A stretch of 64,000 bases of DNA, taken from NCBI GenBank assembly GCA_028688225.1, contig JAQTYQ010000006.1, positions 62,001-126,000 of the forward strand, read 5' to 3'. The DNA comes from Opitutaceae bacterium. GTDB taxonomy: Bacteria; Verrucomicrobiota; Verrucomicrobiia; Opitutales; Opitutaceae. A model generated the notes under the pieces. The model did not search any database. It had not been told where the DNA came from and was given only the letters and a program-made list of their open reading frames with translations. Position 1 is the stretch's first letter, and every line of letters starts with the position of its first letter. A program made the translations under genes and the position numbers. Below are positions 5,313 to 28,016 of the stretch, piece after piece.

Positions 5313-5325
5313 CCAGCTACTCCCT

Positions 5326-5383
5326 ACTTTCACTTTCACCCCTCACTTTCACTCTCACTCTCACCTTCACCCTCACTCTCACC
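5326..5383 (+). repeat. pyrimidine-rich CACTYT hexamer tract directly upstream of an ATG
   Basis: ACTTTCACTTTCACCCCTCACTTTCACTCTCACTCTCACCTTCACCCTCACTCTCACC-ATG. Confidence 0.8.
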
Positions 5384-14034: not shown

Positions 14035-14090
14035 CTTTCTTCACTTTCACTCTCACTTTCACTTTTACTCTCACTTTCACCCTCACTCCC
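14035..14090 (+). repeat. pyrimidine-rich CACTYT hexamer tract upstream of GTG start
   Basis: TTCTTCACTTTCACTCTCACTTTCACTTTTACTCTCACTTTCACCCTCACTCCC-GTG. Confidence 0.8.
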
Positions 14091-16769: not shown

Positions 16770-17930
16770 ATGAATCTCGCCACCCTCCTCGAAGGCCCGG
16801 CCAACGTCACCCACCGCGGCCAGACCCTGCATTTTCGCGGCGGCCTCACGCTCACGCCGCTCGCCGAATTGTTCTCGATCGACAGCGATCTCTACGGCCC
16901 GCTCGATCAGCGCGCCTCGGATAATTCCGTCGTCATCTCCGGCACACCGGTGGGCGTGTGGACCGCGGCACAACTGGCCGTCCTCTATCGCTGGACCAAT
17001 CCCGCGATCGGATCGCTGGTCACCCCGCGCTATGACGTGTCCTCCGTCACGCCGGCGACCGATGTGATCGCCCTCGTTGGCGCCGCCGCCCCGCGCACCG
17101 GCTGCCCGGTGCGATTTGCGCTTTTCCCCGGCGCCACCATCCCGGCCGGCCTCTCCGAGGCCACCCTCTACTATTGGGGCGCCGCCGGCACCCTGCACCC
17201 GACTGAGGCCGATGCTCTCGCCGCCACCAACCCGGTCGACATCACCAGCGCCGGCGCCGGCGACTTCGCGCTCATCGAGCAGGAGCCGGTGATCATCGAC
17301 GCCCTGGCGGCCAACCGGCGTATCACCTTCCACAACGGCGCCATCACCGGCATGCCGCCGATCATCCATTCGGCGGTCGCCAGCATGCTCGGCGCGGCGA
17401 GCTTCGGCTGCTTCCGCAAAAACAACGCCGCCTGGAGCGATGCCAACAGCCTCTACACGGTCGCGAAGGTGGCGCTCTCCGATACGCCGCCCGATGCGGC
17501 CAACATCGTGACGCAAGATTACTCGCTAGCTTTTGGTGCCGCGCCCTGGGACAGCTTCAAGGCCCGCGGCCCGATCACCCTGACGCCGCAACTCCGCACC
17601 GAGCCGATCATCACCGACGGACTCGGCACACTCGGGCTCAGGATCGCCGGGCTGGATGTTGCGGCCATGTTTGCGCCACAGGGGTTTTCGGAGGAGCAGA
17701 TGCTCGACCTGCTCGGCCTGCAGGGCGGCACGGCCGCCCGCGGCAAGAGCAAGGTCCGCGGCAACTTGGTCATCACCGGCACCGGCGTGCACAACATCGT
17801 CTACAATGCCGCGCCGCGACAGCTGCCGCAGACCTTCTCGCCCACCGGGCCACGCGCCGGCGAACTTGAGGCCCGCGGCGCGGCCGGCATCACCGGCGCG
17901 CGCTTCTATGTCGGCACCGCCGCTCCCTGA
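16770..17930 (+). CDS. putative major tail tube protein
   Basis: Position and beta-rich composition. Confidence 0.55.
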   Translation: MNLATLLEGPANVTHRGQTLHFRGGLTLTPLAELFSIDSDLYGPLDQRASDNSVVISGTPVGVWTAAQLAVLYRWTNPAIGSLVTPRYDVSSVTPATDVIALVGAAAPRTGCPVRFALFPGATIPAGLSEATLYYWGAAGTLHPTEADALAATNPVDITSAGAGDFALIEQEPVIIDALAANRRITFHNGAITGMPPIIHSAVASMLGAASFGCFRKNNAAWSDANSLYTVAKVALSDTPPDAANIVTQDYSLAFGAAPWDSFKARGPITLTPQLRTEPIITDGLGTLGLRIAGLDVAAMFAPQGFSEEQMLDLLGLQGGTAARGKSKVRGNLVITGTGVHNIVYNAAPRQLPQTFSPTGPRAGELEARGAAGITGARFYVGTAAP

Positions 17931-17978: not shown

Positions 17979-18638
17979 GTGCGCATCACCTACTCAACGA
18001 CTCTCATTTGTTCCGATCAGGTCGCGCTGGGGCGCCTCGGCGCCGGCGCCAGCTGGCAGGGGCAGCCGATCATCGATGCTGCGCAGTTTTTTCGCGCGGC
18101 CGTGGCCACGGTCTACGGCCGCGGCGATGGGCCGGAGGAATTCTCGCTCCGGGTCTGGGCGTTATTCGCGACCGTGGCGGCGGCGCTGCATTTCTGCGGC
18201 ACCCATCGCGCTTCGCTGCCAGTGCAGGCAGATCTCATCCTGGTCGATGAGGGCGGGACGATCCAGCTCCGGATGGCCGATGCGGTGCGCAGTGTGCGGA
18301 TCGTCGAGCGCCGCGGGCTGGCGGTGCTGGTCGATTACAATTTCACGGGGAGTAAGTTTGCCTCCGAGGATGTCTCCGCGGAGCCGGATCCCACCGATCT
18401 CATGAAAGTGGGTATCTTAGATCTCACCGGGGGTGATGAGTCGAAGGCGGTGGTCTTCGATGTTCCCTTCGCCTCAAGTCCGCGCGCCGTGCATGTCACC
18501 GTGCTGGCGCCGGCCGGAGGCTTTGTCATCGGCGCGGGCGTAGATGAGTCGACCCGCACCACCGCCGGCTTCACCGCGCGCTTTGGCGCCGCCATCCCCG
18601 CCACCGGCTACAAACTCTCCTGGACTGCCATCTTATAG
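17979..18638 (+). CDS. hypothetical tail protein
   Basis: Intact ORF in tail module. Confidence 0.5.
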   Translation: MRITYSTTLICSDQVALGRLGAGASWQGQPIIDAAQFFRAAVATVYGRGDGPEEFSLRVWALFATVAAALHFCGTHRASLPVQADLILVDEGGTIQLRMADAVRSVRIVERRGLAVLVDYNFTGSKFASEDVSAEPDPTDLMKVGILDLTGGDESKAVVFDVPFASSPRAVHVTVLAPAGGFVIGAGVDESTRTTAGFTARFGAAIPATGYKLSWTAIL

Positions 18639-18651
18639 TGCCCTCCATGCC

Positions 18652-20964
18652 ATGAAACGCCTCCTCATCCTCCTACTTTTACTCTCGCTTTCACTCGCGC
18701 CCCTGGCGCGCAACCAGCAGCTCGTCTCCGACCTCAATGTCCAGCGCACCATCAAATTCGGCACGCTCGCTGCCGGCACCATCACGCCGGCGCAGCTCAC
18801 TGCCGACCAGAACGATTTCAACCCCACCGGCCTGGCCTCGGCCTTCGTCGTCCGCCTGAGTTCCGACGCCTCGCGAAACATCACCGGCCTGGTGCCCGGC
18901 ACGGCTCCTGCAGGGCGGATGCTGATCCTTTGCAACGTCGGAGCGCAGCCGATCGTGCTGGCGGATGAGTCGGGCAGTTCGACTACCGCGAATCGATTCG
19001 CGTTTTCGGGCGACTATACCCTGGCCGCCGATACCGCCGCCTGGCTGGTCTATGATGATTCCAGCACCCGCTGGCGTCTGATCCAAACGACCAGCGCTAC
19101 CTTGGCCGCCACCTACCAGCCGCTCGACGCCACGCTCACGGCGCTGGCTGGCTTTAACACCAATGGCATGCTGGCGCAGACCGCGGCCGATACCTTCGCT
19201 GGGCGCACCATCGCCGGCACGGCCGACCGGATCTCTGTCACCAATGGCGACGGCGCCGCCGGCAATCCCACGCTCGACATCGCCGCCACCTATGCCGGCC
19301 AGACGAGCATCACCACACTCGGCACGATCGGCGCAGGTACTTGGCAGGGCAGCGTGATCGGCGGTGCCTATGGCGGCACGGGCGCGGCCAACACTGGCAA
19401 GACCATCACCCTCGGCGGCAGCCTCACAACCTCGGGCGCATACGACACCACACTCACCGTCACCGGCGCCACCAACGTCACCCTGCCGACTGCAGGCACG
19501 CTCGCCACGCTCGCCAACGCGGTCCCGCTGCTGAAGCCCTACGCGCTCGCACCCACTCCCTGTCTCGTCAAGACCGGAGCTGACACCATCGCGGTCGCCG
19601 CAAACACGAAGGTGATCATCAACGGCACTATGCTCGTCACCTTCGCATCGCAGACGGCGGCGACCATCGACACCGGCTCAATCACCATCGGCACAGATTA
19701 CGCGGTCTATGCCACCAATGCCGGCACCGCGGTTTTCTCCGCAAATTTCTCCGCCCCATCCGGCTATACCACCACCACCTCGCAGCTCATCGGCGGCTTC
19801 CACTATGCTCCGGGAGGTAACGCGCATACAACCCTGGGCGACGGACCAATCCTCTCGCGTGGGACGACCGATACCGCCATCGCCTCCACGGCCTTTGACT
19901 TTTCCATCGGGGGTACCTGGTACGCCAAAGCCGCCGTGCCAGCCGGCACGGCCATTCCAGCGGAGACAGTGACCGCGGATAAATGGGCGCTCTACCGACT
20001 CTCCATCATCGCAGATGGCACCATCACCGTCACCCCGGCGGCCGGCAATGTGGCCGGATATGCCGACGAGGCCTCGGCGATCACTGCCCTGCCGGCGCTG
20101 CCCGGTTCCTCGGCTGCGATGGGTTATATCACAGTGCAGACGAAGACCGGCTTCGCCTGGATCGCCGGCACTGATGCCCTGGCTGGCGGGTCGAGCGGCA
20201 ATGTGGCCAATGCCACGAATTATTACCCTGAGTCGGCCTCCGGCGCGCAGATCAACGAGTACTCCATCTGGGACCTCAAATTTCGCCCGGCGTGCGCCGA
20301 TCCTCGAGGGATGACTCTCATCGCCGGCGGCTTCTGGATGGATATCTATATTTGCGGCACCTCGACGGACGTCGCCGGCAGCTCCAAATATGGATCCACG
20401 ATCGCAGACGGGGCGAGCCCTCCGAAGATTCCGGCAGCCTTTGGGGGTAACGGCACGACAACCTACGGCACGCTGACCTGGTTCGAGGCTTCAGAGCTCG
20501 CCGCCGCCTATGGCAAACAACTGCCGTCGTATTCAGAACTGATCGTGGCATCCTATGGGGTCACGGAGCAGACCAGCCGCAACCTGGAACCGAGCACCAC
20601 GCAGTTGGACGCCCCCCGAACAAGCAAATGGGGCGTCATGCAGGCCACGGGCAACATATGGGTCTGGATGCGGGATCTCCTGTTTATCCCTCATACCACA
20701 GCCCTCACGGGGACACCTCCCGCCGATGCCGATTTCGAGACCTGGATCAATGTCTCCAAAACTCTAGGCGGGAAATCGATCACCGAGAGCCGCGGCTCTG
20801 TCTACACCTACGGCAATAATGGGATTTCTGCCGGCCTCTTCGGCGGCCCCTGGTACAACGGCTCCTACGCCGGTTCGCGCGCTTCCGACTGGGGCGCCGC
20901 GCCGTCCGCCTCGGGCAACAACATCGGGGCGCGGTTCGCCTGTGACCACCTGGTCCTGCCATGA
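18652..20964 (+). CDS. DGR variable protein: tail-fibre-like protein with C-terminal FGE-sulfatase/C-type-lectin-fold domain
   Basis: Signal-like MKRLLILLLLLSLSLAPLA; fibre-like repeats; C-terminal MTLIAGGFWMDIY...ATGNIWVWMRD...GGPWYNGSYAGSRASDWGAAPSASGNNIGARFACD; contains VR at the 3' end. Confidence 0.88.
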   Translation: MKRLLILLLLLSLSLAPLARNQQLVSDLNVQRTIKFGTLAAGTITPAQLTADQNDFNPTGLASAFVVRLSSDASRNITGLVPGTAPAGRMLILCNVGAQPIVLADESGSSTTANRFAFSGDYTLAADTAAWLVYDDSSTRWRLIQTTSATLAATYQPLDATLTALAGFNTNGMLAQTAADTFAGRTIAGTADRISVTNGDGAAGNPTLDIAATYAGQTSITTLGTIGAGTWQGSVIGGAYGGTGAANTGKTITLGGSLTTSGAYDTTLTVTGATNVTLPTAGTLATLANAVPLLKPYALAPTPCLVKTGADTIAVAANTKVIINGTMLVTFASQTAATIDTGSITIGTDYAVYATNAGTAVFSANFSAPSGYTTTTSQLIGGFHYAPGGNAHTTLGDGPILSRGTTDTAIASTAFDFSIGGTWYAKAAVPAGTAIPAETVTADKWALYRLSIIADGTITVTPAAGNVAGYADEASAITALPALPGSSAAMGYITVQTKTGFAWIAGTDALAGGSSGNVANATNYYPESASGAQINEYSIWDLKFRPACADPRGMTLIAGGFWMDIYICGTSTDVAGSSKYGSTIADGASPPKIPAAFGGNGTTTYGTLTWFEASELAAAYGKQLPSYSELIVASYGVTEQTSRNLEPSTTQLDAPRTSKWGVMQATGNIWVWMRDLLFIPHTTALTGTPPADADFETWINVSKTLGGKSITESRGSVYTYGNNGISAGLFGGPWYNGSYAGSRASDWGAAPSASGNNIGARFACDHLVLP
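20842..20946 (+). repeat. DGR variable repeat (VR)
   Basis: 105 bp aligned without gaps to TR at +531; 13 mismatches, all at TR adenines. Confidence 0.96.
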
Positions 20965-20982
20965 GTGGCGCGGAAGCGCCAC
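20965..20982 (+). promoter_or_regulatory. DGR target-site hairpin/cruciform downstream of VR
   Basis: GTGGCGC-GGAA-GCGCCAC: perfect 7-bp stem with GNRA-like tetraloop just 3' of VR and the stop codon; absent after TR. Confidence 0.8.
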
Positions 20983-21020
20983 GGCCAAACGGACCCCCCC
21001 ATGATACAGAGCACCATTGC

Positions 21021-21365
21021 ATGCAGCAGCTCGCCATCGTCGAGCGCTACGAGGGTTTCGTTAATTACGTTTACCCTGTGCTGCTGGGTATCGCCCGCTC
21101 CCACCATATGGCCCGCGACCGCGCCATCGGCGCCGTGCTCGATCAGGTCGGACTCTTCAACGACGCCGGAAAATCCGGCATGCTCAGCAAGCTTTACGCG
21201 GCCGATGCCGGCCTGGCTTCGCTGCGGTTCTATTTGCGGTTCTTCGCCGCGCCAGGGCGCAAGCTCATCTCCCAGCACCAACACCAGACCGCGGCGATTC
21301 ACCTTGCCGAGGTCGGCAAGATGCTGGGCGCTTGGATCAGGCGCGTGCAGGCCGCAAAGAGATGA
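21021..21365 (+). CDS. avd: DGR accessory variability determinant (Avd), four-helix-bundle protein
   Basis: LAIVERYEGFVNYVYPVLLGIARSHHMARDRAIGAVLDQVGLFNDAGKSGMLSKLYAADAGLASLRFYLRF; located VR-avd-TR-RT. Confidence 0.85.
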   Translation: MQQLAIVERYEGFVNYVYPVLLGIARSHHMARDRAIGAVLDQVGLFNDAGKSGMLSKLYAADAGLASLRFYLRFFAAPGRKLISQHQHQTAAIHLAEVGKMLGAWIRRVQAAKR

Positions 21366-21372
21366 CCGGGAT

Positions 21373-21477
21373 GGCGGCAACTGGAACAACGGCTCCAACG
21401 CCGGTTCGCGCGCTTCCAACTGGAACAACGCGCCGTCCAACTCGAACAACAACATCGGGGCGCGGTTCGCCTGTGAC
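21373..21477 (+). ncRNA. DGR template repeat (TR), part of the template RNA
   Basis: Match to VR; 11 AAC codons in VR frame hold 22 of its 24 adenines; 157-bp spacer to RT start. Confidence 0.95.
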
Positions 21478-21634
21478 GATCCGTCAAAGCCTTCTCGACC
21501 CCGGCTGCTCACGGGCACCGGGACAGGCCATCAAGGTGGTCAGCCCGGTCGTCTCGCTTCGGCAAACACACTCAGAGGTAGGGGCGCGGAGAGTAACCTC
21601 CGGGCGAAAACCGTCAGCCCCTCATTTTTGCATC

Positions 21635-22624
21635 ATGGGTAAACGACATCACGATCTCTTCGGCCGCATCTGCGCGATGGACAACCTGCGTGATGCCTAC
21701 GCGCGCGCGGCGCGCGGTCGCAAACGCAGCGGTGGCTATCTGCGGTTCAAGGAGCAGGCAGAGGCCAACCTCTCCATCATGCAACAGGAGCTGCTGGTCG
21801 GCACCTATCGGCCCGCGCCACCGCGCGAATTCACCGTCTATGAGCCAAAACCGAGGAAGATTTCTGCCCTGATGTTCGCCGACCGCGTGGCGCAGCATGC
21901 GCTGCACAACGTGCTTGGCCCGATCTTTGAGCGCATCCTCATGGGCCGCTGCTACGCCTGCCGCCCAGGTCGCGGCACCCATGCCGGCGTGCGCGCCGTG
22001 CAGGCCGAACTCCGTCGCGCGTTGCGTGAGAGCGGCGACGTGTATTTCCTGAAAACGGATTTTCGGCAGTATTTCGCCAGCATCGACCTCGCCGTCCTCT
22101 GGCGCGAGATCGAGCGCAAGATCGCTTGTCCGGCCACGCTGGCGTTGATCGAGGTGTTCACGCCACGCACCGGCCGCGGCCTGCCCATCGGCAACCTCAC
22201 CAGCCAGCTCTGGGCTAATGTCTACGGGCACATTTTCGACCGCTGGCTGGTCAGCCAGGGCGTGCGCCTCTGGCACCGCTATATGGACGACGTGGTCGTG
22301 ATCGGCCCATGCTGGCGTCCGCTCGCCGCGCTGCTCAGCCGCGCCCAGCAGTTCGCGCAGGACTGCATGGGGCTCACGCTCAGCCGATGGATGGTGGCGC
22401 ACTATGAGCGCGGGGTGAACTTCCTCGGCTACCGCATCTGGCCCACGCACAAGCTGCTGCGGCGCTCAAGCGTCACACGGGCGCGGCGCGCGCTGCGACA
22501 CTTCGCCCGCCACGACGATGCCGCGGGCCGCCAGCGCTTCCTCGGCGCATGGCTCGGCCACGCGCGCTGGGCCGACAGCCACAATCTTCTCCGATCACTC
22601 AATCTCAGCCCTATTTTACCATGA
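21635..22624 (+). CDS. DGR reverse transcriptase
   Basis: YMDDVVV catalytic motif, GLPIGNLTSQLWANVYGHIFD (GxxxSQ type typical of DGR RTs), GVNFLGYRI; ATG at 21635. Confidence 0.95.
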   Translation: MGKRHHDLFGRICAMDNLRDAYARAARGRKRSGGYLRFKEQAEANLSIMQQELLVGTYRPAPPREFTVYEPKPRKISALMFADRVAQHALHNVLGPIFERILMGRCYACRPGRGTHAGVRAVQAELRRALRESGDVYFLKTDFRQYFASIDLAVLWREIERKIACPATLALIEVFTPRTGRGLPIGNLTSQLWANVYGHIFDRWLVSQGVRLWHRYMDDVVVIGPCWRPLAALLSRAQQFAQDCMGLTLSRWMVAHYERGVNFLGYRIWPTHKLLRRSSVTRARRALRHFARHDDAAGRQRFLGAWLGHARWADSHNLLRSLNLSPILP

Positions 22625-22875
22625 ATCAGAAGCCCGTCATCAACACCCGTGCCGACCTCGATGCCATCGCCGGCACGCCTGAGCATGCTGCTTTCGTCGC
22701 CGCGCTGAAGGGATCCCTGTTTATCGAGGTCGATACCGCCATCTACCCCGAAGGCTATGACCGCAGCCTGGCTCCGGGCGCCCCTGGCTATATCGCCCCG
22801 GTAATCCAACAGATCGAGGACGACACCGCCGCCCGCCGCTTTGGTTTCACTCGCGCCGCGCTGCTCTCCATGTGA
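22621..22875 (+). CDS. small hypothetical phage protein
   Basis: MNQKPVINTRADLDAIAGTPEHAAFVAALKGSLFIEVD...; 4-nt overlap with RT stop. Confidence 0.55.
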   Translation: MNQKPVINTRADLDAIAGTPEHAAFVAALKGSLFIEVDTAIYPEGYDRSLAPGAPGYIAPVIQQIEDDTAARRFGFTRAALLSM

Positions 22876-22887
22876 GTGCTGAAGATA

Positions 22888-22920
22888 TTCACCTTCACCC
22901 TCACTTTCACTCTCACTCCT
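22888..22920 (+). repeat. pyrimidine-rich CACTYT hexamer tract upstream of tape-measure gene
   Basis: TTCACCTTCACCCTCACTTTCACTCTCACTCC. Confidence 0.75.
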
Positions 22921-27519: not shown

Positions 27520-27565
27520 TTCTCAAACCTGCTGGAATTCTTCTCAAACTCCGCTGGAATTTACA
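27520..27565. repeat. prophage right-end tandem repeats (putative transposase binding sites)
   Basis: TTCTCAAACCTGCTGGAATT (27520-27539) and TTCTCAAACTCCGCTGGAATT (27541-27561), then ..TTACA ending in CA at 27565. Confidence 0.75.
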
Positions 27566-28016
27566 GCGCGTCATCAATTCGTTGTATCTGTATCCGGACC
27601 AGTTGGAGACCCATGTCCGTGCGATTTACCGCAAATATGCCGAGATGGAGGGTACGGAAGTGCGCTACGAACTGCACAACTGCGATCAGGCCGACGTCGT
27701 CATCGTGGCGTACGGCACCACCTCGCGCATCGCGCGCTCCGCCATCGAGAAATGCCGCCGACTCGGCCTGCGCGCCGGCCTGCTCCGCCCGATCACGCTG
27801 TATCCGTTCCCGCATGCGGCGTTCGACCAGGTTATCGAACGGGCCAAGGCCGTTCTGGTCGTGGAAATGAGCATGGGGCAGATGCTGGACGACGTAAAAA
27901 TCGCCGTAGCGGGCCGGCGGCCCATTACCTTCTACGGCCGCACCGGGGGAATCGTGCCGACGCCGGAGGAGATCGTGAAGCAGGTGCAGAACCTCCTCGA
28001 AAGGCCCGGCGCATGA
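27566..28016 (+). pseudogene. vorB: vorB-like 2-oxoacid:ferredoxin oxidoreductase alpha subunit, C-terminal part, interrupted by prophage
   Basis: RVINSLYLYPDQLETHVRAIYRKYAEMEGTEVRYELHNCDQADVVIVAYGTTSRIARSAIEKCRRLGLRAGLLRPITLYPFP; frame starts at the phage/host junction. Confidence 0.8.

Follow-up and report, generated by a model that had tools for sequence, protein, structure and literature searches.

The window analyzed here, a stretch of 64,000 nucleotides, carries the parts of a diversity-generating retroelement (DGR) on its plus strand. The order is a target gene with a variable repeat (VR) near its 3′ end, a hairpin, the accessory gene avd, a template repeat (TR), an RNA spacer, a reverse transcriptase (RT) gene and a small gene resembling bbp4 of the Bordetella phage BPP-1. 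The original prediction of a full DGR set in BPP-1-like order was borne out, with every part found where it had been placed.

Repeats and Homing Elements

A repeat search of the region returned a single strong direct repeat, formed by the VR (20842-20946, plus strand) and the TR (21373-21477, plus strand). The two copies align without gaps over 105 nt and differ at 13 positions, all 13 of them TR adenines (7 A>G, 4 A>C and 2 A>T). As adenine occupies 24 of the 105 TR positions, the probability of such an adenine-only pattern arising by chance is 1.8e-10. The VR falls inside the final ~120 nt of the target gene, at the extreme 3′ end where it had been predicted. Read in the frame of the target, the TR contains 11 AAC (Asn) codons, together with one ATC and one GAC. 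Eight AAC codons are altered in the VR, each non-synonymously, and substitutions at the two adenines of AAC never give a stop codon. The nominal repertoire amounts to ~10^14 proteins. Within its own genome the TR matches only itself and this VR; no second VR or target was found there.

The 3′ end of the VR (20923-20952, plus strand; ATCGGGGCGCGG...TGTGACCACCTG) resembles, by eye against the BPP-1 VR, an initiation-of-mutagenic-homing site, and it extends beyond the TR/VR homology. The TR diverges after GAC and the VR goes on with CACCTG, as it does in BPP-1 and most relatives. A predicted hairpin or cruciform element lies at 20965-20982 (plus strand; GTGGCGC-GGAA-GCGCCAC), with a DNA fold z of -3.5, and begins 18 nt past the VR as against 19 nt in BPP-1. 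Studies of BPP-1 have shown that homing requires a GC-rich hairpin stem and a GRNA loop (Guo et al., PMC3240598). The element here is of this type (GC-rich stem of 7-10 bp with a GRNA loop, after the VR; PMC3240598), having a 7-bp stem and a GGAA loop.

Avd, DGR RNA and Reverse Transcriptase

The avd gene encodes 134 amino acids (20961-21365, plus strand), although a start at 21021 is also possible. Its product matches PF22296 (2e-24), NF033474 (2.6e-25, above the cut-off) and PHROG 3206. Between the TR and the RT gene lies a DGR RNA spacer (21497-21621, plus strand), which the original prediction had missed. It matches the Rfam family RF03022 (Phage_DGR) at 60.5 bits (E 5.4e-9), the gathering score of the family being 50. 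A search of 20900-22000 by simple consensus found no promoter-like site.

The RT is a protein of 329 amino acids (21635-22624, plus strand) that matches PF00078, PHROG 1423 (7e-106) and PDB 8ub7 (1.8e-106), the last of which we take to be the BPP-1 DGR enzyme. It contains YMDD (22280-22291) and GNLTSQ, in agreement with the YMDD and GxxxSQ-type motifs first read from the sequence. The RT also weakly matches group II intron RTs, as would be expected if it belonged to a retron or a group II intron and the repeat pair were unrelated to it. A tree of 39 rows with retron and group II outgroups points elsewhere: the DGR rows are set apart (99/97) from the group II introns (97/94) and the retrons (100/100). 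The RT is placed with those of the viral contigs L006 and L008 (100/99). A Comamonadaceae locus and others come next (100/100), and this group then joins BPP-1 and its relatives (100/100). A grouping with retrons or group II introns had been named beforehand as the outcome that would count against a DGR; the RT falls among the DGR RTs (99/97). Where this RT has YMDD and GNLTSQ, the retron and group II RTs used for comparison have YADD and an SP motif. With the tree and the adenine-only TR/VR mismatches against it, a retron or group II identity was rejected and is hardly conceivable.

The Mtd-Like Target Protein

The target gene (18652-20964, plus strand) encodes 770 amino acids; an alternative upstream ATG at 18544 would overlap the preceding gene. 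The product matches a tail protein family (PHROG 11262, 2.9e-100) and the solved Mtd, the BPP-1 receptor-binding protein (PDB 1yu3, 1.5e-65), so that the prediction of a tail-protein target held. The second domain of Mtd is recognizable at 19564-19833 (plus strand; residues 305-394; PF21916, 3.4e-17). The C-terminal C-type-lectin domain corresponds to 20242-20958 (plus strand; residues 531-769), as delimited by phmmer alignment to residues 159-380 of 1yu3. This alignment spans 239 target residues, with the VR in the corresponding place, and the VR-bearing end is predicted by homology to solved Mtd to adopt the C-type-lectin fold. The Asn columns of the TR-encoded GGNWNNGSNAGSRASNWNNAPSNSNNNIGAR coincide by eye with those of the BPP-1 TR.

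Residues 45-212 of the target match phage structural proteins, among them a tail fiber protein from a Bradyrhizobium phage. Because of these N-terminal matches, the protein is probably a tail-fiber shaft fused to an Mtd tip. By its homology to Mtd, it would serve in adsorption to the host. Matches to T7 were rejected as natural relatives, as they trace to an engineered gp17-Mtd chimera.

The predicted N-terminus, MKRLLILLLLLSLSLAPLA, resembles a signal peptide when read from the sequence, which would suit a protein with another role than receptor binding, for example as a surface lectin produced by the lysogen. The gene nevertheless sits amid phage structural genes (terminase, portal, head), its C-terminus is that of Mtd and its N-terminal part matches tail-fiber proteins. 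In addition, a pyrimidine tract like those preceding other prophage genes overlaps the leader, so the start of the target may be misplaced. A role of this sort is thus improbable, and a receptor-binding tail protein is the preferred assignment.

The tracts themselves are hexamer-periodic (YTYACY repeats) and were observed on the plus strand at 5323-5382, 14040-14086, 18678-18694 and 22888-22916. There are 16 matches compared with 0.03 expected. They lie mostly directly upstream of prophage gene starts, one being located at the start of the target gene.

The Carrying Prophage and Its Host

The prophage encodes terminase, portal, head protease, scaffold and major head proteins inside the window. 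Upstream of the window are MuA-like (phrog_310), MuB-like (phrog_296) and Gam-like (PF07352, 1.8e-22) genes. Homology to the host ends at C45:53677, on the same contig, and restarts at window position 27564, giving an insert of ~35.9 kb. The right end of the prophage maps to 27557-27570, where CAGCGCG (27564-27570) forms one copy of a target duplication; the left copy is at C45:53661-53667, outside the window. The flanks are contiguous, that is, the site is empty, in four congeneric genomes (L062, L063, L064 and L065). By eye, L062 and L065 have one copy of the CAGCGCG present at both junctions here, and the duplication is 5-7 bp long. L063 and L064 carry sequence variants of the insertion site that are likewise uninterrupted. 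The region interrupted by the prophage encodes a TPP-dependent oxidoreductase. The MuA, MuB and Gam genes and the short target duplication confirm the earlier view of a Mu-like (transposable) prophage.

A Verrucomicrobia-type host, as proposed, is probable. No 16S gene was found in the host's own genome assembly. The position-338 variant ACACCTACGGGTGGCAGC, which we take to be typical of Verrucomicrobia, gives an indirect indication, being present in the 16S of another genome from its family (G085).

Distribution and Comparison with Known Systems

Among 388 genomes sampled from the phylum, Avd was found in one, namely the host's own. No close relative of the RT was found in five other genomes of the genus; one of these congeners has two weak RT matches, the longer of which groups with group II introns. 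The closest named relative of the RT in the genome collection belongs to a Comamonadaceae MAG (56%). The closest RTs overall (68-69%) are those of the IMG/VR contigs L006, L007 and L008, which share the cassette and the bbp4-like gene. L008 also has several structural genes in common with the prophage, with 77% for the protein at 16770-17930. These contigs are fragmentary and contain no match to the first ~300 residues of the target.

A TR/VR pair was present in 32 of the 37 related loci scanned, and in nearly all of these pairs the mismatches were adenine-only; in the outlier L031 there were two at adenines and one other. Long blocks of the sister phage contigs L006 and L007 show 98-99% identity, with ~1% divergence across a 3.9-kb block. 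The two have the same TR sequence, and the 12 positions that distinguish their VRs are all TR adenines, suggesting that this lineage has been active. An invariant VR lacking adenine bias had been proposed as evidence against a DGR; near-identical relatives were found to vary at TR adenines. The comparison adds a lineage whose near-identical phages differ in the VR at adenines only, in nature.

The closest characterized system is that of BPP-1. The gene order (mtd-avd-TR-brt), the position of the hairpin and the bbp4 neighbor are shared, as are the variable Asn-codon columns. The RT is 53.8% identical to Brt over 97%, Avd is 48% identical and the Mtd C-terminus 41% identical. In contrast, BPP-1 has a tRNA-derived attachment site, while the carrier here is a Mu-like prophage, and the host is of Verrucomicrobia type, unlike that of BPP-1. 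BPP-1 Mtd has 381 amino acids, whereas the target here has 770, with a long extra N-terminal part before the same domains.

The hankyphage of Bacteroides, whose host belongs to a different phylum, is likewise a Mu-like transposable prophage that carries a DGR; its target duplications are 5 bp long (PMC6199706). BalMu-1 carries an RT of the DGR clade. DGRs of the BPP-1 type are known, and the locus is less new than first implied because transposable phages with a DGR have been described as well (PMC6199706). What it provides is a transposable prophage with a full BPP-1-type cassette in a Verrucomicrobia-type host.

Mtd and the bbp4-Like Gene

The bbp4-like gene encodes 84 amino acids (22621-22875, plus strand), and its start overlaps the stop codon of the RT. 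It is kept in BPP-1 (bbp4) and its relatives, with 17 invariant columns. Among 80 viral loci with such a gene, 49 have matches to RT, Avd and Mtd, although several weak Mtd matches ~1.1 kb upstream probably hit the TR and not Mtd. In another 17, Mtd is present but neither RT nor Avd was detected; the remaining loci are partial cassettes or short contigs. The bbp4-like gene starts 7-79 nt past Mtd in 15 of the 17 Mtd-only loci. The Synechococcus phages S-CBS1 and S-CBS3 also have an Mtd homolog followed by a bbp4-like gene, as in the unit here, and the ~160 nt between the two matches leave no space for a cassette.

Some loci retain traces of the missing block. L070, L074, L098 and L133 still contain the hairpin along with fragments of avd or RT, and alignment of L093 and L098 to BPP-1 reveals deletions of ~1.6 and ~1.1 kb, respectively. 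The fragments and deletions indicate that these loci are losses; several phages are thus seen to have lost the DGR by deletion yet kept the target. In L093, a relative of BPP-1, the deletion extends from within the hairpin as far as the RT 3′ end. L117 is an exception, with RT and bbp4 but no Mtd and a break between TR and RT.

As the bbp4-like gene follows Mtd without a detectable DGR in 17 of the 80 loci, it is unlikely to be a DGR accessory. Across the 80 phage loci, its association seems to be with Mtd and not with the DGR; the Mtd-only loci and deletion remnants suggest that the gene accompanies Mtd and that the cassette is removable. A role of its product in tail assembly or attachment is a guess, and no paper on bbp4 function was found in the literature searched. 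On balance, we lean slightly towards Mtd and the bbp4-like protein forming the basic unit, a receptor-binding tip with a dedicated assembly or attachment partner, between whose genes avd-TR-RT would be gained or lost as a module. If so, loss or acquisition of a single 1.6-kb block could turn a phage's receptor-binding tip from diversifying to fixed or back. The comparison makes bbp4, a small and unexplained gene of BPP-1, testable as a partner of Mtd.

Proposed Mechanism and Integrity of the Locus

We are highly confident that the locus is a complete, probably functional DGR of the BPP-1 type that would diversify an Mtd-like tail tip. By analogy with BPP-1, the TR-containing RNA (TR with the RF03022 spacer) would be copied by a complex of RT and Avd, with random bases inserted opposite the TR adenines. 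The resulting cDNA would replace the VR at the 3′ end of the Mtd-like gene, guided by the GC-rich VR 3′ end and the hairpin just downstream. In this way, rewriting could affect as many as 11 AAC codons of the tail protein's C-type-lectin tip, and the altered tip may allow the phage to bind changing receptors.

Upstream of the window, the MuA-like transposase is divided between two genes that overlap at ATGA (L042:17712-19897, minus strand; contig C45:59712-61897). The catalytic part has 459 amino acids and the C-terminal part 269. The same division into overlapping genes occurs in two diverged genomes (L164 and L165), so it seems to be conserved and not a lesion. No related split transposase was found among viral contigs.

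With MuA homology on two overlapping genes, the prophage might be defective. The DGR could then be real but fixed, either the prophage or the DGR itself being inactive and the VR a fossil of past diversification; the deletion-made remnants in L070, L074, L093, L098 and L133 lend this some weight. The parts are, however, all intact, including an open RT with YMDD, Avd, the RNA and the hairpin, and an open frame is preserved through the VR. The transposase split, shared by two diverged genomes, need not be a lesion. A fixed DGR is therefore rather unlikely, and a functional one is favored.

A second Mu-type transposase, an open frame of 740 amino acids, is located elsewhere in the genome (L047; G000:C38:3768-3947) and possibly represents another transposable element or prophage.
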